Positions 22,771 to 35,578 of a stretch of DNA of 64,000 nucleotides are shown here, piece by piece. The stretch's first letter is position 1, and every line of letters starts with the position of its first letter. The stretch spans positions 62,001 through 126,000 of the forward strand of contig CAIULL010000070.1 of NCBI GenBank assembly GCA_903899985.1, given 5' to 3'. The notes under the pieces were generated by a model. That model had not been told where the DNA came from. It was given only the letters and a program-made list of their open reading frames with translations, and did not search any database. The position numbers and the translations under genes are program-made. The stretch comes from an uncultured Schlesneria sp. (lineage in GTDB: Bacteria; Planctomycetota; Planctomycetia; Planctomycetales; Planctomycetaceae).

Positions 22771-23112
22771 GTTGTCAGCAAATTCAGGAGGTAGGTGATC
22801 AGCAAAGGCAAGTTTCGGGGCAGGATACAACGTCGCGGAGATTAATTGGCCGATGCAGTCTACGTACCGAAGTGATGGCTCGGCAATTCAAAAGTCAGTT
22901 CGAAGCCACGCGGCGCGGAACAAATTATTCAGTTCCAATGAATTTTCTCAGTAAGCAGCCGCACAACTTCAGGTGAATACGTTTGTTTGTTACAGTTGGA
23001 CAGGATCTGTCTGAGAGCAAATAGATTGATATTTGCTGAGCTATCGTGTCCCTCACCTCCCCTCATTCTGCGGGTGATTGTTTTTGCGTGGAATTTTGGA
23101 TCGCGACCGCAT
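22771..23112. other. 342-base divergent intergenic region
   Basis: It separates the DUF1592 operon (minus) from the first giant kinase (plus) and should hold both promoters. Its last part (about 23094-23105, TTTTGGATCGCG) is also found just before the second kinase gene. Nothing else was recognised. Confidence 0.5.
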
Positions 23113-26100
23113 ATGGCACTCGAGATCGCATCACGATTTGTCAATTCGCCATTGAGCGAACAGGATCAACGCCTCGTCAAGTCGGCAACGGATGCGTTTC
23201 GAATTTCCTGGCAGAGTCATCAACGCCCCGATATCGAAGCGTATTTAGCGATATTGCCGGAATCGTTAAAGCTGGCCGCTCTGGCTGAGTTAATGACACT
23301 CGATATTGCATTTCGCCGAGCTGAGGGCAAGTTCTGTTCGCCGACAGATTATACGACGAAATTTCCTGGATATATCGAGACGGTTTCGAAGCTGTTTGAC
23401 CATTTACAAGCATCAGACACGCAACCTACTGCTGAATCTACCGCAATCGAGGCACGTTCAGTGAATGACGAGCATGATCCTTTGAAAAAAGCGTCTGAAA
23501 GTCGCAAAAGCAAATCAGATGGTTCAGACGAATTGAAGAATGTCCCTGAACAGTTTGGCCGATACCGCATTGTGCGTGAACTTGGCCGTGGTGGTATGGG
23601 CGCAGTCTACCTGGCGGTTGACGGACAGCTGGGGCGAAACGTCGCTTTAAAGATTCCTTTCTTCCGCGAAGATGACGAGCAGGAGGCTGTCGAACGTTTC
23701 TATCGCGAGGCGCGAGCGATGGCGATTGTTCAGCACGCCAACTTGTGCCCTGTCTATGATGTTGGCCAGTTTGAAGAGTGGCACTTCCTGACCATGGCAT
23801 ACATCGATGGTCAGCCCCTTTCAAATGTATTGAAAGACGCGAACTTCGTTTCGGTGCCCCAGGCCGCGGCGCTGGTGAAGACGGTTGCAGTGGCGGTGCA
23901 TAAGGCGCACGAAGCAGGGATCGTGCATCGCGACTTGAAGCCCGCCAATATCATGCTGACGAAAGATGGTGATCCGATCATCATGGATTTTGGATTGGCC
24001 CGTCGAAAGTCAACCGGTGAAGTCGACTTAACTCGAACGGGCGCCGTTTTTGGAAGTCCAGCCTACATGGCGCCCGAGCAGGTTGAGGCCAGGCACGATG
24101 AAATTGGGCCGGCCACCGATATTTATGCCATGGGGGTGATTCTGTATCAATTGGTCACGGGGCAAAGGCCGTTTCAAGGTTCCGTGATGTCAATTTTTGG
24201 ACAAATCCTTTCGAATGTGCCTGATCCCCCTTCGAAATGGCGTCGAGACTTGCCACCCGAACTCGATTCAATCTGCTTGAAGGCGCTCGCAAAATCTCCT
24301 TCGGAACGGCACGCCTCGGCTGCAGAATTTGCCGAGGAATTGTCCTATCTGGTGAATCCAGCCGGCAGTGACTTGAAGACAATTTCGTACCATTCTCGTT
24401 CCGATGCCGGGTCCGCTCCCGGGGGGGAAAGTGACAGTGCGTCAAACAGCCGGTCACGACGTGATGCGGAGTTACGGCAAGTGACAGTTGCCGTTTTCAA
24501 CTATGAAATTGACGGCGACAACTCGTCAATCGATGCGAGCAGATCCTCAACGTCCTCCCAAGCGGAACTCTTGCACGAGCAGTCACAGTCGTTCGCCGCG
24601 TTCGTTAATGAACAAGCCGCACAACTCGGTGGTGTGACGGTGCAAGGAACGGGGCAGGAAGTCTTGACCTGTTTTGGTTTTCCACAGGCGTTTGAGGATG
24701 CCCCGCAGCGAGCCGTTCGAGCGGCACTGCAAGTCATGCGCAAGCTTACCGTAACCGATCCTCAGGTGGCGAAATTGCCCCTGGCAAGACAGGCGTGGGT
24801 CCTGCTGCACTCGGGAGAAGCGGTCGCCGAAGAAATTGGCGGCGCACAAGGTGCCGCGGTGTCATTGGTGGGTGAGGTTCGCAATACCGCACTACGGCTG
24901 AGCGGCATCGTTGAACCGGGAAACGTTGTGGTCAGTGCGGCGATCCACCGGCGAGTGGCATTGTATTTCGAGTGTGAATCGCTGGGGATACAGCGGGTTC
25001 GCGGAGTTTCTCAGCCCGTCGAACTATTCAAAGTCACGAAAGAAGCGGCCTCGCGTAACCGGGTGGAACTGGTCGATCCGGGCAACTTATCACCGCTCGT
25101 CGGGCGTGATACGGAACTTTTGATTCTCAAGGACCGCTGGGAGCAGGCACAGGACGGGTTGGGCCAGGTTGTCCTTCTGATCGGTGACGCTGGTCTTGGC
25201 AAGTCCCGTTTGATCCGCGAGTTGCGGGAACACGTCATTGGTTCGGATACCGAAGGCGCTGCCGTCATTGAATGGCGGTGTGCGCAGCACCAGCAGGGAA
25301 CCAGCTTTTTTCCCGTCGTCGAATTTCTCACGCGATTGTTTAACTTTGAAAATCTTTCGGCTGCCGATCGGCTGAAAACCGTGGTGCGATACCTGCGCGA
25401 TTGGAACCTCGAATCGACCGAAAATGTCTCATTGCTGTGCGGGCTGCTTGGCGTTGCTACGGATGACCGTTTTCCAGCGCTTGCCCTTTCGCCACAAAAA
25501 GTGAAGGAACGGACCGAGCAACTGTTGCTTCAGTGGTTGAAGCAGATGGTTGAGATCAGCCCGATGTTATTCATCGTTGAAGACTTGCACTGGCTTGATC
25601 CATCGACGCTGCAATTGCTTGAAAAGTACGTCGTGGAATTCGAGGCTGGCCGTATGCTCAGTCTTCTGACATTCCGTCCAGAATTTGAAACGCCCTGGAA
25701 GAGCAGCCCGCATCAAACTCAGATTGCTTTGAACCGTCTGACCAAACGGCAGATCGGCGAGATGATGCGGAAACGGACCAGGCGTCGTGAAATCCCTGAG
25801 TTAATCCTGCAGCAAGTGATTGAACGGACTGACGGAATTCCCTTGTTCGTGGAAGAATTCACGGTCGTGATCATCGAGTCTGGAATTCTGGACCGTTCTG
25901 ATTCCGGCGCTGATTCGTCGTCGCTGCTCAAGATCATTCCGTCCACGCTGCACGATCTGTTGTTGTCTCGACTGGATCGTATGTCCGCCGATCGCGAAGT
26001 CATTCAGTTGGCATCCACAATCGGGCGTGAGTTCGGATTTGGTCTGTTGTCGGCCGCCTGTTCGCTGCCAGCAGCCCAGCTGCAGACCGAACTCGACAAG

Positions 26101-27621
26101 CTCGTGAAAGCCGAGATCCTTTTTAAAAAGGGGGATGCAGCCGAAGCGAGCTACATCTTCAAACATGCACTGCTGCAAGACGCCGCCTATCGTTCGATGC
26201 TCACGAAAAGGCGTCAAGCATGTCATCAGCGGATTGCCGAAGTGATCGAGGCGAAGTTTGACGACATCGTCAATTCACAGCCAGCTCTCCTGGCACATCA
26301 TTTCAATGAGGCCGGTGACAGTAATAAGGCGAGTCAATACTGGCTGAAAGCTGGTCAGAAATCTCAGCAACAGTCGGCCAATATTGAAGCGATCAGCCAG
26401 CTGACTCAGGGGCTGAAGATTCTGCAGACGCTTCCAGAGTCTGAACATCGAGACCAGTTAGAACTCGCGTTTCAAACGGCACTTTCTCCTGTCCTGATGG
26501 CAGCACGCGGCTGGTCCGCTCCAGAAGTCGGGATCGCGATCGAGCGAGCTCAACAACTCTGTTCCAGATACGGCACTCTGGAAGATCAGTTTTTTGTGAT
26601 GTGGGGGCTTTGGGGTTGGAGAGTCATTCGAGCAGATCTGGATCTTTGCGAGGGGATCTCACGCGAGATCATGCAACTGGTGGAAAACTCGGCAGACGGC
26701 GAAAAATTGTTGCCTGAAGCATACTGGGTCGTCGGTTGCACGGCATATTATCAAGGAGAATTCAGTACCGGACTGAAGTTGCTTGAGCTGGGACTGGTGC
26801 ATGCGAATCCCGATCTGGAGAAAGCTTATGCATTAAAGACCGGTCAGCACTGCAGTGTGATGTGCAGCAGCCATTCGGCACTGGCCCTCTGGGAATTAGG
26901 CTATCCGGACCAGGCATTGCAGCGAGCGGACGAGACAGTTCAGTTCGCCAGGAGACTCGGGCACCCATTCAGCTATGCAATGGCCTTGTTTTTCAGTCGA
27001 CAGGTCCTGCAGTTTTGTGGTCGCGATCAGGAAGCGATTGATCGAATTGAAGAAGAGTACAAAATCTGCCACGAGCAAGGATTTGTTTTTTTCGAAGTCC
27101 ATGCCATCTACGGTCGTGGAGAATTACTGCTCAGGGAAGGCAAGGTCGATGAAGGACGAAAGCTGTGTCATCAAGGTTTGGAAATGCTGAAAGGGGCAGG
27201 CGCAAATCTGTCGATGGATCATCCCTATCGAAATATTGCGGAAGCCTGCCTTGTCGCAGGACTACCCGATGATGCCAGTTTATGGCTGGGTCGCGGATTG
27301 AATCTTGTTGAGAATCATCACGAACGAGGGATGTTAAGCGAGTTCCTGCGTTTGAAGGGGGAACTCGCACTTGCTGCCGGTGACGAAAAAGTGGCTGAAG
27401 ATTGCTTTCAAAAAGCGGTCGAAGTTGCTCGACAACAACAGGCCAAATCGTGGGAATTGAGGGTGATGATCAGTTTCGCCGAATTAAGGCGGCGTCAGGG
27501 TCGATCAAATGAAGGCCGACAGTTGCTGCAATCAACCTACGACTTCTTCACGGAGGGTTTTGATACCGCGGATCTACTCAGGGCAAAAAAGTTGCTGCAG
27601 GAACTAAAATCGACGATATGA
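23113..27621 (+). CDS. Giant Ser/Thr kinase with cyclase-like, STAND ATPase and TPR domains (copy 1)
   Basis: 1502 residues from the ATG at 23113. An open frame extends 42 codons upstream, but the paralogue at 29333 starts at the equivalent point and the two share TTTTGGATCGCG just before it. Domains in order: planctomycete kinase leader (1-120); kinase (about 150-430) with GRGGMG, HRDLKPAN, DFGLARR and YMAPEQ, all catalytic residues present; a class III cyclase homology domain (about 453-643) whose metal aspartates are replaced (VAVFNYE, GTGQE); a STAND/AAA ATPase with Walker A GDAGLGKSR near 691 and Walker B LFIVEDLHWLD near 818; and TPR repeats to the end. It has no membrane helix and is probably cytoplasmic. 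The architecture recalls the kinase/cyclase fusion proteins described beside TOMM peptide clusters. It is followed 36 bases later by an FAD enzyme. Confidence 0.9.
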   Translation: MALEIASRFVNSPLSEQDQRLVKSATDAFRISWQSHQRPDIEAYLAILPESLKLAALAELMTLDIAFRRAEGKFCSPTDYTTKFPGYIETVSKLFDHLQASDTQPTAESTAIEARSVNDEHDPLKKASESRKSKSDGSDELKNVPEQFGRYRIVRELGRGGMGAVYLAVDGQLGRNVALKIPFFREDDEQEAVERFYREARAMAIVQHANLCPVYDVGQFEEWHFLTMAYIDGQPLSNVLKDANFVSVPQAAALVKTVAVAVHKAHEAGIVHRDLKPANIMLTKDGDPIIMDFGLARRKSTGEVDLTRTGAVFGSPAYMAPEQVEARHDEIGPATDIYAMGVILYQLVTGQRPFQGSVMSIFGQILSNVPDPPSKWRRDLPPELDSICLKALAKSPSERHASAAEFAEELSYLVNPAGSDLKTISYHSRSDAGSAPGGESDSASNSRSRRDAELRQVTVAVFNYEIDGDNSSIDASRSSTSSQAELLHEQSQSFAAFVNEQAAQLGGVTVQGTGQEVLTCFGFPQAFEDAPQRAVRAALQVMRKLTVTDPQVAKLPLARQAWVLLHSGEAVAEEIGGAQGAAVSLVGEVRNTALRLSGIVEPGNVVVSAAIHRRVALYFECESLGIQRVRGVSQPVELFKVTKEAASRNRVELVDPGNLSPLVGRDTELLILKDRWEQAQDGLGQVVLLIGDAGLGKSRLIRELREHVIGSDTEGAAVIEWRCAQHQQGTSFFPVVEFLTRLFNFENLSAADRLKTVVRYLRDWNLESTENVSLLCGLLGVATDDRFPALALSPQKVKERTEQLLLQWLKQMVEISPMLFIVEDLHWLDPSTLQLLEKYVVEFEAGRMLSLLTFRPEFETPWKSSPHQTQIALNRLTKRQIGEMMRKRTRRREIPELILQQVIERTDGIPLFVEEFTVVIIESGILDRSDSGADSSSLLKIIPSTLHDLLLSRLDRMSADREVIQLASTIGREFGFGLLSAACSLPAAQLQTELDKLVKAEILFKKGDAAEASYIFKHALLQDAAYRSMLTKRRQACHQRIAEVIEAKFDDIVNSQPALLAHHFNEAGDSNKASQYWLKAGQKSQQQSANIEAISQLTQGLKILQTLPESEHRDQLELAFQTALSPVLMAARGWSAPEVGIAIERAQQLCSRYGTLEDQFFVMWGLWGWRVIRADLDLCEGISREIMQLVENSADGEKLLPEAYWVVGCTAYYQGEFSTGLKLLELGLVHANPDLEKAYALKTGQHCSVMCSSHSALALWELGYPDQALQRADETVQFARRLGHPFSYAMALFFSRQVLQFCGRDQEAIDRIEEEYKICHEQGFVFFEVHAIYGRGELLLREGKVDEGRKLCHQGLEMLKGAGANLSMDHPYRNIAEACLVAGLPDDASLWLGRGLNLVENHHERGMLSEFLRLKGELALAAGDEKVAEDCFQKAVEVARQQQAKSWELRVMISFAELRRRQGRSNEGRQLLQSTYDFFTEGFDTADLLRAKKLLQELKSTI

Positions 27622-27657
27622 CAATGGCTGGATTGTGGATCGGGACGTTTGTCAAAA

Positions 27658-29094
27658 ATGAATGAATCAGACCGCAGGTTGGGCAAACATGCGATTGTGA
27701 TCGGAGGCAGCATCTGTGGTCTGCTGACCGCGCGGGTGCTCAGGTCGCATTTCGATAAAGTCACAGTGATTGAACGCGACTCGTTTTCGACGAATTACGA
27801 GCCTCGTAAGGGTGTTCCGCAGGGAAGAAATGTCCACGTCATTTTCGGTGGCGGAGTGCGCGTCATCAATCGACTTTTCCCGGGCTTTTTTGATGAACTT
27901 GCCAGAACTGGATCTGTTGTTTGTGACTTTGCAAAAGACTTGTGCTGGTATCACGGAGGCGTTTGGAAGGCCCGGCCAGCGTCGGAATTAGTGTCGTACT
28001 GGCAGAGTCGACCGTTCCTGGAATCCAATCTGCTGCGCCGACTCAAAGCCGATACCGATATTCGGATTCTGGAACAGTGTGCTGTCACGGGATTTCTTTC
28101 ATCCCCCGACAAGTCTCGTATCACCGGTGTCGAACTTCGTGCTCATGAGGAGACCGGAAAAACCGAAGCCATCGAGGCTGATCTGATTGTCGACGCGGGG
28201 GGGCGAGGAAGTCAGACGCCCGCATGGCTTGAAGCGATTGGCTATCAAAGGCCTGTCGAAACGACGGTTGAAGTCAACATCGGATATGCGAGTCGAATCT
28301 ACGAACCAAGCCAGGACACCACGCGTGACTGGCAAATCATGGCCCTTTATGGGACTCCGCCAGACAGTAAACGGACAGGTTACATTTTTCCGATCGAAGG
28401 GGGGCGATGGCTGGTCAGTCAGGTTGGCTTCTTGAAGGATTACCCACCTGACGATGACGAAGGTTATCTTGAATTCGCAAAGTCGCTGGAATTGCCCGAT
28501 TTTTACGATGCAATCAAGGACGCAAAACCACTCACGCCAATTTCCACATTCAAGTTTCCAGCCAATCGTTGGCGACGCTATGACCATCTTAAGCGGTTTC
28601 CCGCAGGACTATTGGTCATTGGAGATGCGATTTCGACATTCAACCCAGTTTACGGACAAGGGATGAGCGTTTGCTCGCTCGAAGTCGATGAACTTCGTCA
28701 GTTGCTTGAACACTGCCAGGGAAGCGCCGCGATCTCCACTGATCTGGCGAAAAAGTTTTTTCGAAAAGCGGCAAAGATCATCGAAACCCCCTGGATGCTG
28801 GCAACACAATCCGATTTTCTTTATCCGGAAACGTCAGGGAGGCGGCCGGTACATACGAATTTACTGAACTGGTATCTGCTGAGGATGTTGCAGCTTTGTT
28901 CGGGCAACGAACGAATCGTAAAAACGTTTTACGAAGTCTTGCACTTCATCAAAAAACCCACAGCATTCTTCCACCCGGCGGTTTTATTTCCCGTATTTGG
29001 TCGCGGCCTTGGCTTGAAAAAGTCTTACGATCCTTCAAAACAGCGTCCCAGCGTGACTTCAACAACGCATCTCAGCGTGACGACGCGGACTTAA
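27658..29094 (+). CDS. FAD-dependent mono-oxygenase, epoxidase/hydroxylase type
   Basis: 478 residues from the ATG at 27658 (a TTG at 27649 is possible). The dinucleotide fold is AIVIGGSICGLLTARVL with the ribose-binding ERD 20 residues on. The second FAD motif is LLVIGDAISTFNPVYGQGMSV (GD plus the PxxGQGM loop), and the middle motif DLIVDAGGRGS is present. The early segment RKGVPQGRNVHVIFGGG resembles the polyene epoxidase/LasC-like branch of group A flavin mono-oxygenases and also tryptophan-halogenase relatives, but the halogenase WxWxIP motif was not seen. The expected reaction is oxygen insertion into an organic substrate using FADH2. It lies between the two paralogous kinases in the same direction, 36 bases after the first. 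Confidence 0.82.
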   Translation: MNESDRRLGKHAIVIGGSICGLLTARVLRSHFDKVTVIERDSFSTNYEPRKGVPQGRNVHVIFGGGVRVINRLFPGFFDELARTGSVVCDFAKDLCWYHGGVWKARPASELVSYWQSRPFLESNLLRRLKADTDIRILEQCAVTGFLSSPDKSRITGVELRAHEETGKTEAIEADLIVDAGGRGSQTPAWLEAIGYQRPVETTVEVNIGYASRIYEPSQDTTRDWQIMALYGTPPDSKRTGYIFPIEGGRWLVSQVGFLKDYPPDDDEGYLEFAKSLELPDFYDAIKDAKPLTPISTFKFPANRWRRYDHLKRFPAGLLVIGDAISTFNPVYGQGMSVCSLEVDELRQLLEHCQGSAAISTDLAKKFFRKAAKIIETPWMLATQSDFLYPETSGRRPVHTNLLNWYLLRMLQLCSGNERIVKTFYEVLHFIKKPTAFFHPAVLFPVFGRGLGLKKSYDPSKQRPSVTSTTHLSVTTRT

Positions 29095-29332
29095 GCAGAC
29101 AGACTTCGAATCGGTGAGTCCAAGTGGCGCTTCGTCAGTCAGTTTTTGGGATGCTCCAAAAATTTTCCGGGGCGAAGTCGCGTAACTTCAGGTCAGTGTC
29201 TTTGTGTGATATAGTTGTATAGCGACAATTTGTACGAAAACTTATCGGTTTTTGCCGCGCGTTGTGGCAATCACCTTTGACGCGTTCTGCTTGCAATCTT
29301 TCGTAGCTTAGATTTTTGGATCGCGGGCCCAA

Positions 29333-32300
29333 ATGGAACACGACATCGTTTCCGATTCTGCAACTTCGCCCCTGAACGAACAGGATCTGCGGCTCATCGC
29401 CGCAGTAAAGGGTGCGTTTCAAATTTCCTGGCAGAAAAATCAATCTCCTGACATTGAAGAGTACTTAAAGAAATGTCCGGAACCGCTAAGGCCGGCGGCT
29501 CTGGCTGAGTTAATGACTCTGGATATCGGGTTTCGCCGGGCTGCGGGTGCGGCCTGTTCGCTGACGGATTATACGACGAGATTTCCTGGATATCTCGAAA
29601 CGGTTTCAAAGCTGTTTGATCAGTTACAGTCGTCAGACACGCAACCAACTTGTGAAGCGACCTTAATTGAGGCGAGTTCAGCAGTGGACGACGATGTTCC
29701 GTTGAATAAAAATCCGGAAGGTCACAAGCGGAAATCAGACGGTTCAGACGATTTGAAGGAAGTCCCCAAACAATTTGGCCGCTACCGAATTCTGAGTGAG
29801 CTTGGCCGTGGTGGTATGGGAGCCGTGTTTCTGGCCCTTGACGGAGAACTCGATCGAAAAGTCGCTCTCAAGATCCCATTCTTTAAGGAAGATGACGAGA
29901 AGGAAGCGGTCCAGCGATTCTATCGCGAGGCGAAAGCCATGGCGGTTGTTCAGCACGCCAACTTGTGTCCTGTGTTTGATGTGGGCCGGTTTGGAGAGTG
30001 GCACTTCCTGACGATGGCGTTCATTGACGGCCAGCCACTTTCGAATATGTTGAAAGATTCGAATTTCCTTTCCGTGACCCAGGCCGCCACACTGATGAAG
30101 ACTGTTGCGGTCGCGGTGCAGAAAGCGCACGAAGCAGGGATCGTGCATCGCGACTTGAAGCCCGCCAATATCATGCTGACGAAGGATGGTGATCCGATCA
30201 TCATGGACTTTGGATTGGCCCGTCGAAAGTCAACCGGCGAAGCCGACTTGACTCAAACTGGTGCCGTCTTTGGAAGTCCAGCCTATATGGCTCCCGAGCA
30301 GGTTGAGGCCAGGCACGATGAAATTGGACCGGCCACCGACGTTTACGCGCTGGGAGTCATTCTGTATCAGATGGTCACGGGCCACCGGCCATTTCAAGGT
30401 TCGGTGGCGTCGATTTTTGGACAAATCGTCTCAAACGTGCCCGCCCCCCCTTCGAAATGGCGTCAAGGATTGCCACCCGAGCTTGATGCAATCTGTTTGA
30501 AGGCGCTCGCAAAATCCCCTGCAAACCGGCATGCCTCAGCAGCAAAGTTTGCCGAGGAATTGTCGTATCTGGTGAATCCCGCCGGCAGTGATGTGAAGAC
30601 CATTTCTTATCATACTCGTCCCGATGTCGAATCCGCCGCCGGGGCAGAAGCTGAAAGTACGTCAAACAACCGTTCACGACGTGATGCGGAGTTACGACAG
30701 GTGACCGTTGCCGTTTTCAACTATGAAAGCGACGGCGACGAAGGCTCGATTAGCATGAACCGGGCGTCGATGTCTTCCCAGTCGGAAATGTTGCATGAGC
30801 AGTCTCAGTCGTTTGCCGCGTTCGTGACGGAACAGGCCGCAGAACTCGGCGGTGTGACGGTGCAGGGAACCGGACAGGAAGTCCTCACCTGCTTTGGGTT
30901 TCCTCAGGCGTTCGAAGATGCCCCGCATCGCGCGATTCGAGCAGCACTGCAAGTCATGCGGAAGCTCGCCGTGGCAGATCCCAAGGGGGTGAAACTACCT
31001 CCTGCAAGTCAGGTGTGGGTGGTTTTACATTCGGGTGAGGCCGTCGCAGAGGTCTCTGAGGGTTCACAAGGGCCGAGTGTTTCATTAGTGGGTGAAGCCC
31101 GTAACACGGCGCTTCGGTTGAGTGCCATTGTTGAACCGGGAACGGTTGTGGTCAGTACGGCGACCCACGCACGCGTGGCGCTGTACTTCGAGTGCGAATC
31201 ATTGGGAACGCAGCGGGTCCGCGGAATTTCTCAGCCCGTTGAACTTTTCAAAGTCAATAAAGAAGCCGCCTCGCGAAATCGAGTCGAGCTGGTCGATCCG
31301 GGTAATTTATCTCCGCTGGTTGGACGTAATACCGAGCTTGCGATTCTGAAGGATCGTTGGGAACAGGCTCAAGATAGTCTGGGTCAGATTGTCCTTTTGA
31401 TTGGTGACGCAGGGCTCGGCAAGTCGCGGTTGATCCGCGAGTTGCGGGAACACGTCATTGATTCGGATACGGAAGACGCCGCCGTGATCGAATGGCGATG
31501 TGCTCAGCATCAGCAAGGAACAAGCTTTTTTCCCGTCATCGAATTTCTCACGCGGTTGTTTGACTTCGAGAATCTTTCCGCAGCAGATCGGTTAGAAACC
31601 GTTGTTCGCTACCTGCGCGAGTGGAAAATCGAATCGGCGGAAAACGTCGCATTACTTTGCGGGCTGCTCGGCGTTGCCACCGATAGCCGTTTTCCCGCTC
31701 TCGCCTTGCCGCCGCAAAAAGTAAAGGAACGGACAGAAAAGTTGCTGCTTCAGTGGTTGAAGCAGATGGTTGAGATCAGCCCGATGTTGTTCATCGTTGA
31801 AGACTTGCACTGGCTCGATCCCTCGACCCTGGAATTACTCGAAAAGCATGTATCGGAATTCGAGACCGGTCGCATGCTCAGCATCCTGACTTTCCGTCCG
31901 GAATTCGAGACTCCGTGGAAAAGCAAACCACATCAAACGCAGATCGCTTTGAGTCGTCTGACCAAGCGGCAAATCGGCGAAATGATGCGGAAAAGGACCA
32001 AGCGCAGCGATATTCCAGAGCCAATCCTGCAACAGGTCATCGAACGTACCGACGGGATTCCGTTGTTTGTCGAAGAATTTACCGTCGTCATCCTGGAGTC
32101 GGGAATCCTGGATCGTCCGGATATCAATGAGGAAAACTCGTCCCTCTTGAACGTCATCCCGGCGACACTCCGCGATTTGCTGCTGTCTCGACTCGATCGC
32201 ATGGCCGCCGATCGTGAAGTTATTCAGCTTGCCTCAACAATCGGGCGAGAATTCAGCTTCAGTCTGTTGTCGGCCGCTTGTACCTTGCCGGAAAACCAGT

Positions 32301-33829
32301 TGCTGGGCGAGCTTGATAAATTACTGTCTGCAGGGATTCTCTTTAAAAAGGGAGAAGGCTCAGATGCGAGTTACATCTTCAACCATGCGCTGCTGCAAGA
32401 CGCGGCCTATCGCTCGATGCTCACCAAGCGACGGCAATCGTGTCATCAGAATATCGCCCAAGCCCTGGAATTGCATTTCACAGACATTGTCCATGCTCAA
32501 CCCGCTCTGCTCGCACATCATTACACCGAGGCGGGCATTACTGAAAAAGCGATTGACTACTGGATGAAGGCGGGACAGAAGTCGCAGGAACAGTCGGCGA
32601 ACATTGAGGCCATCCAGCATTTCGAAAAGGGACTGGCCCAGACAATGCTGCTGCCGGAATCGTCGGAACGCGACGTCCTGGAATTGAATTTGAAGTTGCC
32701 ACTTACCGGAGCCCTCATGGCGGTGCAGGGTTACGCGGCGAAGGAGGTCGAACCCGTTCAGAATCGGTGCATCGAGATCTGTCGCCAGCTTGGCGAGGGG
32801 TCACCGTTGTTTCTGGTCATGTTCACAAACTGGGAATGGCTGTTTATTCGCGGTCGGTTCGCCGATTGCTTCCGGCGCTGTGACGAACTTCTTGCTCTGG
32901 CCAAGGAGAAACAAGGCCCTGGAATGATGGGTGAAGCACGGTGGGCACTGACCTGTACGTCGTTTTACGCAGGGGACTTCGCTTCGGCACACGATCATGC
33001 AGTGATCGGATCGCAAAATCATCACCGTGAAGCGAGCATCGAATTTGCGAAAATCACGCAGCAGAACAGCGGGTCGTTGAACCTGATATTTCTTGGCTCG
33101 TCCCTTTGGCAATTGGGTTTTGCCGATCAGGGCCTTTCCTGGTCGCTGAAAGCTCTCGACCTGACTCTGGATTTGAAACACGCTTTCACCGAAGCGATGA
33201 TTTACTGGCAAATTGCTCAAGTCTACGATTTTGCTGGAATGGGGGATAAGACGATCGAATACGGCGAGCGTTGTATGAAGATCGCTGACGAGCAAGGATT
33301 CGTTTTCTGGGCGGCACTTGGAACCGCTTGTGTCGGTGTTGGTCTTAAGCATCTTGGCCGTTACGACGAGGCGATCGAGGCACTGCAAAAGGCACTCGTA
33401 CAAGTCGAAGCCACCGGGTCATTTATTCTGTTTACTAAGTACCGTGCACATCTAGCAGATTCGTTATGGCAATCAGGGCAACGTGATGCGGCAGTCAAGC
33501 AACTTGATCAGGCGTTCGCTGATCAAAGCGGGGGTGAGCTGTTTATGCACTCCGAGTTGCTACGGATTCGCGGGGACTTCCAGTTTGATAAAGGTGATCT
33601 GGATGCAGCCGAGGCGACGTATGGCGAATCGCTGGCGGTCGCCAGAAAGCAAAGCGCGAAGTTTTACGAGCTCAGGACGATGGTGCATCTCTGTCGAATC
33701 TGGCAGAAGCGAGGTGACATCGGCGGACTGAAGCAGAATCTGGAGCCGCTTTACAACTGGTTTACAGAAGGCTTTGAAATGCCCGATCTGAAAGCGGCCA
33801 GGAAACTGCTCGAAGGACTTTCCACTTAG
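29333..33829 (+). CDS. Giant Ser/Thr kinase with cyclase-like, STAND ATPase and TPR domains (copy 2)
   Basis: 1498 residues with ATG start. It has the same domain order as copy 1: leader (1-125); complete kinase (GRGGMG near 160, HRDLKPAN near 272, DFG near 292); degenerate cyclase homology domain (VAVFNYE, GTGQE); STAND ATPase with GDAGLGKSR near 692 and LFIVEDLHWLD; then TPR repeats. Through the ATPase part the two proteins are very similar, with mostly conservative changes; past about residue 1090 they diverge strongly, although both remain TPR-rich. The pair therefore arose by duplication, with different C-terminal sensing surfaces. The 238 bases before it are enough for its own promoter. 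Confidence 0.9.
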   Translation: MEHDIVSDSATSPLNEQDLRLIAAVKGAFQISWQKNQSPDIEEYLKKCPEPLRPAALAELMTLDIGFRRAAGAACSLTDYTTRFPGYLETVSKLFDQLQSSDTQPTCEATLIEASSAVDDDVPLNKNPEGHKRKSDGSDDLKEVPKQFGRYRILSELGRGGMGAVFLALDGELDRKVALKIPFFKEDDEKEAVQRFYREAKAMAVVQHANLCPVFDVGRFGEWHFLTMAFIDGQPLSNMLKDSNFLSVTQAATLMKTVAVAVQKAHEAGIVHRDLKPANIMLTKDGDPIIMDFGLARRKSTGEADLTQTGAVFGSPAYMAPEQVEARHDEIGPATDVYALGVILYQMVTGHRPFQGSVASIFGQIVSNVPAPPSKWRQGLPPELDAICLKALAKSPANRHASAAKFAEELSYLVNPAGSDVKTISYHTRPDVESAAGAEAESTSNNRSRRDAELRQVTVAVFNYESDGDEGSISMNRASMSSQSEMLHEQSQSFAAFVTEQAAELGGVTVQGTGQEVLTCFGFPQAFEDAPHRAIRAALQVMRKLAVADPKGVKLPPASQVWVVLHSGEAVAEVSEGSQGPSVSLVGEARNTALRLSAIVEPGTVVVSTATHARVALYFECESLGTQRVRGISQPVELFKVNKEAASRNRVELVDPGNLSPLVGRNTELAILKDRWEQAQDSLGQIVLLIGDAGLGKSRLIRELREHVIDSDTEDAAVIEWRCAQHQQGTSFFPVIEFLTRLFDFENLSAADRLETVVRYLREWKIESAENVALLCGLLGVATDSRFPALALPPQKVKERTEKLLLQWLKQMVEISPMLFIVEDLHWLDPSTLELLEKHVSEFETGRMLSILTFRPEFETPWKSKPHQTQIALSRLTKRQIGEMMRKRTKRSDIPEPILQQVIERTDGIPLFVEEFTVVILESGILDRPDINEENSSLLNVIPATLRDLLLSRLDRMAADREVIQLASTIGREFSFSLLSAACTLPENQLLGELDKLLSAGILFKKGEGSDASYIFNHALLQDAAYRSMLTKRRQSCHQNIAQALELHFTDIVHAQPALLAHHYTEAGITEKAIDYWMKAGQKSQEQSANIEAIQHFEKGLAQTMLLPESSERDVLELNLKLPLTGALMAVQGYAAKEVEPVQNRCIEICRQLGEGSPLFLVMFTNWEWLFIRGRFADCFRRCDELLALAKEKQGPGMMGEARWALTCTSFYAGDFASAHDHAVIGSQNHHREASIEFAKITQQNSGSLNLIFLGSSLWQLGFADQGLSWSLKALDLTLDLKHAFTEAMIYWQIAQVYDFAGMGDKTIEYGERCMKIADEQGFVFWAALGTACVGVGLKHLGRYDEAIEALQKALVQVEATGSFILFTKYRAHLADSLWQSGQRDAAVKQLDQAFADQSGGELFMHSELLRIRGDFQFDKGDLDAAEATYGESLAVARKQSAKFYELRTMVHLCRIWQKRGDIGGLKQNLEPLYNWFTEGFEMPDLKAARKLLEGLST

Positions 33830-34183: not shown

Positions 34184-35578
34184 TCACGGTTTCGCCTGGT
34201 GCGGTACAAGCTTGGCCTTCAATTCTTTTGTTTCGACGACTCCACAGTGAAGGCTCGGTTTAAACGATCCGCTTGTCTTGACGTAGACCTTTGAGAGCAT
34301 CGATGCCAGGACAATCTTCATGGAGAACATGGCGATTTTCCACCCCACGCACATACGTGGCCCTCGCCCGAAGGGGAAGAAATAGTCGCTTCCAATCGGA
34401 TTCGCTTCAACCCCCCCATTGGCCCATCGTTCAGGATCAAATTGATCTGGATTCTTCCAATGGTTTGCTGACCTTTGAACGGCATTCGCGACAATCATCA
34501 CGGCCGTATTTGGTGGAATTTCCCGGCCTCCCAGTGTCGTTGATCTGTCTTTGCGCACATTGCGCCCGAAAACCTGGACAGGAGGAATCAGCCGCAGCGA
34601 CTCACGTAAAACGTGATCCAGAAAAGAGGATTCTCCGATCGAAGACATGTCATAATCGGGCTTGTGCCGTCTCATCTCTGCCAGTTCGCCGTAGAGTTTC
34701 TTTTCAATCTCAGGATTCTCGTTGAGCAGGTGAAAAGTGTTGACGATCCCCGCGGCTGACGAAACGTCGCCGCCGACGTGAAATTCACTCAGGAAGTCGA
34801 CAAGCTGTTCGTCCGGAATATCTGATCCCTGCCTCAAGAAAATGCTCAGCAGATCGTTGGCATTCGGGTCAGGATTCTGTCGGGCCTCTTTGACGATTTT
34901 GTCATACGAGCCATAGTGAGCGGCCATAGCGCTGTGAAACGATGGTTGAAGAGGCGGAATCAACAGTGCCTGAGGGGTCGCCATGCGTCGCGTCGCCACC
35001 ACGGTCATTGTGTAGTAATTCTCGTAACCACCCGCATGGAACTTGGGGCCGCATACGATGCTGTTGAAGACATCGAAGAAGACCCGCTGAATCTTGTCGA
35101 GGATTTCGATTTCACCGACGGTCTCAAGCATCTTCGACAGGTGCTGGTCAACCACGGATTTGATGAGGGAAAACTGGGACTCCAACCAGGCGTCCAATCC
35201 GTCGATCAGACACGGATGGGAATGAGGCTTCCTCAAGTTATTCCATTCTGGCGAATTCAGGTTGAAAACGGTGTTACGCAACACCGGCCTGAGGGCTTTG
35301 ATTGGATAATCCTTGTAGTAATCATCGGCTTTATCAATCAAAACGTCGCGAATCAGATTCGGATCGTTAAGGATGAGTGTTGGCTCACTGCCAAGCCAGC
35401 ACAACGTCATGCCACCGTATTTTTTTTCGTAATCCGCAAAAACTTCCCACGGATTTCGCGTTGCGAATTCACCCATGTTACCAATCGGGAAAACCGGCGT
35501 CGGGCCGGGAATTCCCTCAAATTTTTTCATCAAAGACCCGTATCGAATCCGGAACAACGTGTCAAAAATTCCTGCCAT
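34184..35578 (-). CDS. Cytochrome P450
   Basis: 464 residues with ATG start. The haem-binding loop is FPFGRGPRMCVGW (residues 401-413, cysteine ligand C410). The K-helix ExxR is in VLRESLRL, the PERF-like motif is FDPERW, and the I-helix oxygen groove reads FHVGGDVSSAAG, where the usual threonine is serine. The N-terminus has the proline-rich hinge PGPTPVFPIGN but only a weak hydrophobic start, so the protein may be soluble or loosely membrane-bound. It would oxidise an unknown lipid-like or natural-product substrate with electrons from a reductase or ferredoxin not encoded here. It faces the kinase/FAD-enzyme cluster convergently. Confidence 0.92.
   Translation of the reverse strand: MAGIFDTLFRIRYGSLMKKFEGIPGPTPVFPIGNMGEFATRNPWEVFADYEKKYGGMTLCWLGSEPTLILNDPNLIRDVLIDKADDYYKDYPIKALRPVLRNTVFNLNSPEWNNLRKPHSHPCLIDGLDAWLESQFSLIKSVVDQHLSKMLETVGEIEILDKIQRVFFDVFNSIVCGPKFHAGGYENYYTMTVVATRRMATPQALLIPPLQPSFHSAMAAHYGSYDKIVKEARQNPDPNANDLLSIFLRQGSDIPDEQLVDFLSEFHVGGDVSSAAGIVNTFHLLNENPEIEKKLYGELAEMRRHKPDYDMSSIGESSFLDHVLRESLRLIPPVQVFGRNVRKDRSTTLGGREIPPNTAVMIVANAVQRSANHWKNPDQFDPERWANGGVEANPIGSDYFFPFGRGPRMCVGWKIAMFSMKIVLASMLSKVYVKTSGSFKPSLHCGVVETKELKAKLVPHQAKP

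Follow-up and report, generated by a model that had tools for sequence, protein, structure and literature searches.

The locus and its genes

The DNA analysed here, a stretch of 64,000 nucleotides (the window) on contig C70 of a planctomycete genome of 8.0 Mb whose nearest relative is genome G004, encodes two large tandem proteins, KinA and KinB, in which a Hanks-type protein kinase is joined to a degenerate cyclase, a STAND ATPase and a C-terminal TPR tail. A gene for a flavin adenine dinucleotide (FAD)-dependent mono-oxygenase lies between them, and a cytochrome P450 gene converges on KinB from the opposite strand (Table 1). An initial annotation of the window had placed an FAD mono-oxygenase gene between the two kinases, and this gene indeed begins exactly 36 bases after the stop codon of KinA (27621 to 27658); the convergent P450, absent from that annotation, belongs to the same picture. 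Genes were called by a simple longest open reading frame procedure, in which intergenic gaps may err by a few codons. The longest frame of KinA opens earlier, at TTG 22987, and the start supported by homologues is ATG 23113. The regions upstream of the two kinase genes are alignable with each other, which indicates that they were duplicated together with the gene.

Table 1. Features of the KinA–KinB locus, in window positions (AOS, allene oxide synthase; LOX, lipoxygenase)
Feature	Position	Strand	Evidence and remarks
KinA 5' region	22945..23112	+	alignable with KinB 5' region
KinA	23113..27621	+	conserved ATG start, backed by homologues at loci L020, L022 and L042; N-domain, Hanks kinase, pseudo-cyclase, STAND ATPase, FAD-type TPR tail
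KinA protein kinase domain	23563..24315	+	PF00069, E 9e-47; VALK, HRDLKPAN, DFG intact
KinA cyclase-like domain	24430..25062 (approximate limits)	+	metal-binding Asp positions lost (VFNY, GQE)
KinA STAND ATPase (AAA_16)	25093..25635	+	Walker A GDAGLGKSRL, Walker B VEDLHWLD
KinA TPR tail, FAD type	26395..27618	+	tail tree; AlphaFold2 all-helical TPR superhelix, pLDDT 80
FAD-dependent mono-oxygenase, MonCI/Lsd18-like	27658..29094	+	ATG start; sequence family and FAD motifs
KinB 5' region	29155..29332	+	alignable with KinA 5' region
KinB	29333..33829	+	KinA-like architecture; AOS/LOX-group TPR tail
KinB protein kinase domain	29783..30532	+	Pfam and motif alignment
KinB cyclase-like domain	30785..31243	+	PF00211, E 6e-5; metal-binding Asp positions lost
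KinB STAND ATPase (AAA_16)	31313..31870	+	Pfam, Walker motifs
KinB TPR tail	32615..33826	+	nested in AOS/LOX tail group; AlphaFold2 pLDDT 85
Cytochrome P450 of kinase-linked subfamily	34184..35578	-	PF00067, E 5e-66; convergent with KinB
P450 I-helix motif GGDVSS	34757..34774	-	replaces (A/G)Gx(D/E)T(T/S); acid-alcohol pair absent

Domain architecture of KinA and KinB

Both proteins show the Pfam order Pkinase, degenerate guanylate-cyclase-like domain, AAA_16/STAND and TPR. The catalytic lysine and the HRD and DFG motifs are kept in both kinase domains, which on this basis are predicted to be active Hanks-type kinases. In the cyclase-like domains, Asn/Tyr and Gln occupy the aligned positions of the metal-binding aspartates, both of which are retained in the relative from genome G151; judging from these residues catalysis is very unlikely, and assignment as an active class III nucleotide cyclase was rejected, both aspartates being gone in KinA and KinB. 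The AAA_16 domains, which carry Walker A and B motifs, are the two best AAA_16 matches in the whole genome and are followed by a TPR superhelix, so that Pfam, motifs and structural models agree in placing both proteins among the STAND/TPR proteins. Their only full-length relatives in the genome are each other, some 70 further matches covering the kinase domain alone. AlphaFold2 models of the tails are good superhelices, yet their fold matches are generic and indicate no ligand; for KinA they include domain III of MalT (1hz4) and the STAND structure of PH0952 (6mfv).

A large Ser/Thr kinase lies beside the precursors of thiazole/oxazole-modified microcins (TOMM) in Burkholderia (PMC2887384), and the best full-length family match of KinA and KinB is TIGR03903 (TOMM_kin_cyc), with kinase, cyclase-like domain, STAND ATPase and TPR in the same order over ~1260 aligned positions. 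That the locus represents a TOMM-associated kinase/cyclase fusion system, a resemblance pointed out in the initial annotation, is nevertheless hardly credible. The scores (639.4 and 604.0 bits) fall below the family cut-off of 705.75, both cyclase metal ligands are lost, and the linked enzymes are of lipid-oxygenase type instead of peptide cyclodehydratases; no cyclodehydratase, dehydrogenase or precursor peptide was found beside the locus or among the neighbours examined in relatives, small peptides not having been searched exhaustively. The association was rejected on NCBIfam score and neighbour content.

Separate histories of core and tail

Identity between KinA and KinB, 67% overall, amounts to 64% in the N-domain, 85% in the kinase, 80% in the cyclase-like domain, 87% in the STAND domain and 31% in the TPR tail. 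Domain alignment thus bears out the initial description of two paralogues with one domain order, alike from kinase through ATPase (80-87%) and diverged in the TPR repeats (31%). Synonymous divergence (dS) climbs along the gene, from 0.58 in the kinase to 1.1 in the STAND domain, 1.5 in the winged-helix part and a nearly saturated ~3 in the TPR repeats, which indicates that the tail difference is more than relaxed constraint and that the two halves have different histories. The KinA tail matches that of a protein from another genus (G169) at 52-73% by stretch, whereas the kinase domains of the same pair match at 24-51%; the KinB tail matches that of G153_2 at 62-83% in most stretches, as against 15-45% between the tails of KinA and KinB. 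The two copies within G153 are likewise similar in the core and dissimilar in the tail. Forcing the FAD-linked proteins into one clade on the STAND tree was rejected by the approximately unbiased (AU) test (p-AU 1.7e-6), as was forcing KinA and KinB into one clade on the tail tree (p-AU 4.9e-5).

Sister genomes retain different parts of the locus. The single kinase of G001 is a hybrid, in which diagnostic sites in codons 1-400 are KinA-like (43 to 11) and the remainder KinB-like; its 5' region is 81% identical to that of KinA and 54% to that of KinB, and the KinA-type tail and the FAD gene are both gone. G005 carries KinA-FAD and the P450 and is devoid of KinB. Between these two genomes, presence of the FAD gene coincides exactly with presence of the A tail. 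The hybrid of G001 and the arrangement of G005 indicate that the halves recombine via the common core; tail and core have been exchanged through homologous recombination between copies.

A plain tandem duplication, after which the TPR repeats evolved under relaxed constraint and the neighbouring enzymes merely hitchhiked, would be in keeping with tandem paralogues that share alignable 5' regions, but we regard it as very improbable: each tail is closer to those of other genera than to its twin, the AU tests contradict it, and the same enzymes recur in unrelated loci at gaps below 130 bases. Relaxed tail constraint alone was rejected on the tail relatives in other genera, the AU tests and the synonymous gradient.

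Oxygenating enzymes beside the kinase family

Neighbourhoods were tabulated for 50 planctomycete core proteins, counting enzymes within 4 kb that belong to a list of classes (MonCI-like FAD mono-oxygenase, coral-type AOS, catalase-like protein, di-heme peroxidase, GMC oxidoreductase, lipoxygenase and P450), so that families off the list would be missed. At least one listed oxygenating enzyme accompanies 34 of the 50 core loci; among 80 non-planctomycete homologues only one had any listed neighbour, a patatin. The usual order is an optional lipoxygenase, the kinase, and then an FAD enzyme, an AOS, a catalase-like protein plus di-heme peroxidase or a GMC enzyme, on one strand and with gaps mostly below 130 bases, followed by a convergent P450. 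Partner genes mostly share the strand of the kinase, at gaps of 2-104 bases for FAD, 35-114 for AOS, 6-164 for GMC and 0-129 for catalase-like/di-heme partners, and the lipoxygenase stands upstream of the kinase in five loci. The kinase-FAD order itself is found again within the genus (G004 and G005), in a second genus (G169) and in other planctomycetes (L093 and L099). Neither outcome named in advance as refuting the initial reading, an FAD gene never linked to the kinase or equal divergence along the whole length, was observed.

The AOS (~360 residues) matches the coral enzyme 1u5u with E 1e-81, the catalase-like protein matches 3e4w (E 7e-13), the lipoxygenase belongs to PF00305, and a RoxA-like di-heme peroxidase (NF040606) lies directly downstream of several relatives; patatin and FadL genes also recur near family loci. 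At the G169 locus (L074), AOS, lipoxygenase and P450 converge on FAD gene and kinase (kinase-FAD><P450-lipoxygenase-AOS), the FAD enzyme being 68% and the P450 60% identical to those of the window. Catalase-type AOS and lipoxygenase are the two components of coral AOS-LOX (1u5u/3dy5); both occur among the partners in relatives, but the genome of the window has a lipoxygenase and no AOS. The RoxA-like enzymes are kin to the di-heme peroxidases PA2077 and PA2078, the oleate-diol synthases of Pseudomonas (PMC4496055, PMC5155153), and occur in the loci of relatives, not in the window.

Several further arrangements were observed. Each downstream of a family kinase, L172:2172-4241 encodes a protein whose C-terminal domain resembles intradiol dioxygenases, and L170:6025-6777, at a distance of 63 bases from its kinase, a protein resembling acetoacetate decarboxylase; both may be additional partners. 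At L212:3491-9450 (G004:C174), with no family kinase nearby, one strand carries a run of genes for a di-heme peroxidase fusion of 1259 residues, a relative of AOS and a catalase-like protein. Proteins of ~870 residues with a C-terminal catalase/AOS domain are paired with a lipoxygenase at L190:6628-11145, L191:8467-12926 and L193:8816-13290, and these pairs appear to be the operon counterpart of the fused AOS-LOX of corals.

The enzyme class follows the tail

The relation between partner enzyme and kinase was assessed in 29 proteins and five classes (FAD, AOS, catalase/di-heme, GMC and P450), the class being that of the first enzyme downstream and enzyme-less loci being excluded. Mapped on the tail tree, the class needs 4 changes, the minimum possible, a count reached in 971 of 1000 bootstraps; the STAND tree requires 10 (9-11 across all its bootstraps) and the kinase tree, built from 24 proteins, 8. 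With enzyme-less loci included, the counts are 10 for the tail and 14 for the STAND core. The class of the neighbouring enzyme follows the TPR tail, not the STAND core. KinB-type tails are nested inside the AOS/LOX tail group, a placement that fits with the P450 standing in for an AOS.

The proposal made at first, that differing inputs feed one common output core and that the system is tied to oxidative enzymes, gains from the recurrence of the kinase-FAD order and from this covariation. From the image of twin kinases built around one oxidative enzyme, the tie to such enzymes is retained, but not the symmetrical enclosing pair: the FAD gene goes with KinA, KinB has an AOS/LOX-type tail beside a P450, and either half may be missing in sister genomes (G001, G005).

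The FAD mono-oxygenase and the convergent P450

The FAD enzyme, a single-copy gene in its genome, carries the motifs VIGGSICGL and GDAISTFNPVYGQGM and belongs by family and motifs to the MonCI/Lsd18 type, its nearest solved structures being MonCI (E 1e-66, residues 13-392) and Lsd18 (4e-61). MonCI and Lsd18/LasC are flavin epoxidases of polyether biosynthesis (PMC10560226, PMC12144862); the window gene differs in being embedded with STAND kinases, and no polyketide synthase lies beside it in the part of the window examined. In G024, of another genus, remnants of a kinase N-terminal part and an FAD gene adjoin at L025:8280-9543, a decayed or mis-assembled kinase-FAD locus.

In the kinase-linked subfamily, the I-helix of all 17 P450s reads GG-x-(V/I/F)-S or nearly so, with the cysteine ligand and ExxR retained, whereas six ordinary P450s, taken from the same genomes or related ones, keep AGHETT. 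Lack of the I-helix acid and threonine typifies P450s that rely on a peroxide in place of O2 and a reductase, and peroxide-rearranging P450s of plants and animals include CYP74, CYP5A1 and CYP8A1. CYP74 enzymes work without O2 or a redox partner (PMC10813956). The loss of the acid-alcohol pair with cysteine and ExxR kept is a likeness to these enzymes, and by this signature the linked P450s are putatively assigned to the peroxide-rearranging functional class. Membership of CYP74 itself found no support: the best 60 solved matches comprise CYP3A, CYP97-like, CYP46, CYP102 and others, none of them CYP74, and the best solved relatives are CYP3A-like. P450s number only ~2 per genome, yet 10 adjoin the kinase. 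Just past the P450, an open frame of 2072 codons that matches no Pfam family (window:35942-42160) is kept in sister genomes, at 74-88% over the aligned parts.

Co-occurrence with lipoxygenase and AOS

In a sample of 170 genomes of the order, the kinase family occurs in 27. Lipoxygenase was found in 21 genomes, 17 of them shared with the kinase (Fisher p 3.8e-13), and AOS in 10, all shared (p 2e-9), p-values that ignore relatedness and overstate independence, these being related genomes and many of them metagenome-assembled. The genome of the window encodes one lipoxygenase (G000:C112), unlinked to the window, with intact iron ligands (HEASTHLGRTH, HAAVN and C-terminal Ile), and AOS is absent from it. 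For an oxylipin role of this locus itself, the support comes from its homology with G169 and from this unlinked lipoxygenase. That lipoxygenase directly follows a 1628-residue TIR-nSTAND1 protein (L183:6396-13371), and in G004 a FadL-type porin gene stands between the TIR-nSTAND1 gene and the lipoxygenase (L184:2613-11194), a second STAND-lipoxygenase neighbourhood of another architecture.

The kinases might alternatively run an NLR-like stress or defence response, with the oxygenases as effectors or peroxide detoxifiers and the lipid link incidental. Conflict systems often contain STAND proteins (PMC7159879), the lipoxygenase is accompanied by a TIR-nSTAND1 protein both in the genome of the window and in G004, and the catalase-like and di-heme peroxidase partners would suit peroxide handling. 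We deem this improbable in view of the strong co-occurrence with lipoxygenase and coral-type AOS; PADLOC returned generic kinase-domain matches only, and assignment to a defence system was rejected on that result.

A proposed modular sensor matched to an oxygenation step

Our preferred explanation, held with moderate confidence, is that KinA and KinB are modular STAND-kinase sensors of a planctomycete family whose tail is matched to the adjacent oxygenation step, probably on oxylipin-type lipids. The genomic evidence forms a strong pattern, made up of the domain content, the linkage and co-occurrence of the genes, the covariation of tail and enzyme, recombination of the core, and the losses of the cyclase metal ligands and of the P450 acid-alcohol pair. 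From lipoxygenase, coral-type AOS, relatives of di-heme fatty-acid dioxygenases, catalase-like peroxidase, P450, FAD epoxidase, patatin and FadL, oxygenated unsaturated fatty acids (oxylipins) are indicated. Beyond this pattern, we infer the ligand, the lipid substrate, multimerisation and the kinase target of KinA and KinB.

The common core (planctomycete kinase N-domain, Hanks kinase, dead cyclase and STAND ATPase) would act as switch and output, and the C-terminal TPR tail as the input module, matched to the enzyme encoded alongside. The KinA tail would pair with the downstream MonCI-like FAD mono-oxygenase, and the KinB tail, of the AOS/LOX group, with a P450 devoid of the oxygen-activating acid-alcohol pair, as in peroxide-rearranging P450s. 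The tail may bind the substrate or product of the partner enzyme, or the enzyme protein itself; binding would open the ADP-held STAND module, as in MalT, whereupon the protein would multimerise and the kinase domain signal. In MalT and PH0952, the TPR sensor keeps the STAND module closed until the inducer binds (PMC4381067, PMC6468293). KinA and KinB share with these proteins and AfsR a STAND core followed by a C-terminal TPR superhelix (PMC4381067, PMC6468293, PMC10936776), but their output is a kinase instead of a DNA-binding domain, and their tails are swapped between paralogues and track the neighbouring enzyme.

The chief rival to ligand sensing is docking of the enzyme by the tail, in which the kinases would be scaffolds or direct regulators that phosphorylate the neighbouring enzyme and sense no lipid ligand. 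We assign it a minor but real chance, as it explains the tail-enzyme matching equally well and TPR superhelices commonly bind proteins, LGN, APC/C and Rap being among the fold matches of the tails. On the other hand, the KinB tail groups with AOS/LOX tails although the neighbouring P450 has another fold, G002 retains an FAD-type tail without the FAD gene, and the understood STAND-TPR proteins such as MalT bind small inducers as well as proteins.

Several observations weigh against a matched oxylipin sensor, besides the relatedness of the genomes noted above. Sixteen of the 50 loci have no listed enzyme (~5 of these cut by contig ends), and the FAD-type tail of G002 likewise stands without its enzyme. 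The genome of the window has its lipoxygenase on another contig and no AOS, and no lipoxygenase was detected in GMC-type genomes, so not every partner need act on oxylipins. Finally, MonCI and Lsd18 act on polyene polyketides, and a fatty-acid substrate is presumed for the window enzyme.

Implications for a possible planctomycete lipid signalling

Bacterial oxylipins are known mainly from Pseudomonas. In the literature searched, we found no receptor-like partner of bacterial lipoxygenases and no paper bringing together bacterial lipoxygenase and planctomycetes, and the key terms are absent from a review on 18-carbon oxylipins as well as from a survey of the conflict systems of multicellular prokaryotes. 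More tentatively, and with somewhat less assurance than the local explanation, we propose that planctomycetes may possess a dedicated lipid-mediator signalling system, in which every oxylipin-type enzyme would have its own NLR-like STAND kinase, and the product of that branch would be recognised by the exchangeable TPR tail of this kinase. If true, one output would be driven by different oxylipins, made by enzymes equivalent to those of the coral and plant oxylipin pathways (lipoxygenase, AOS, peroxide-type P450, di-heme fatty-acid dioxygenase and epoxidase). A receptor-type family travelling with lipoxygenase, AOS and related enzymes provides direct candidates for bacterial lipid sensing, and predicts functions for the FAD enzyme of MonCI type and for the kinase-linked P450 subfamily. 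Furthermore, with an input module that tracks the neighbouring enzyme and a shared output core that recombines, the family may constitute a natural experiment on how STAND proteins gain specificity by tail swap.

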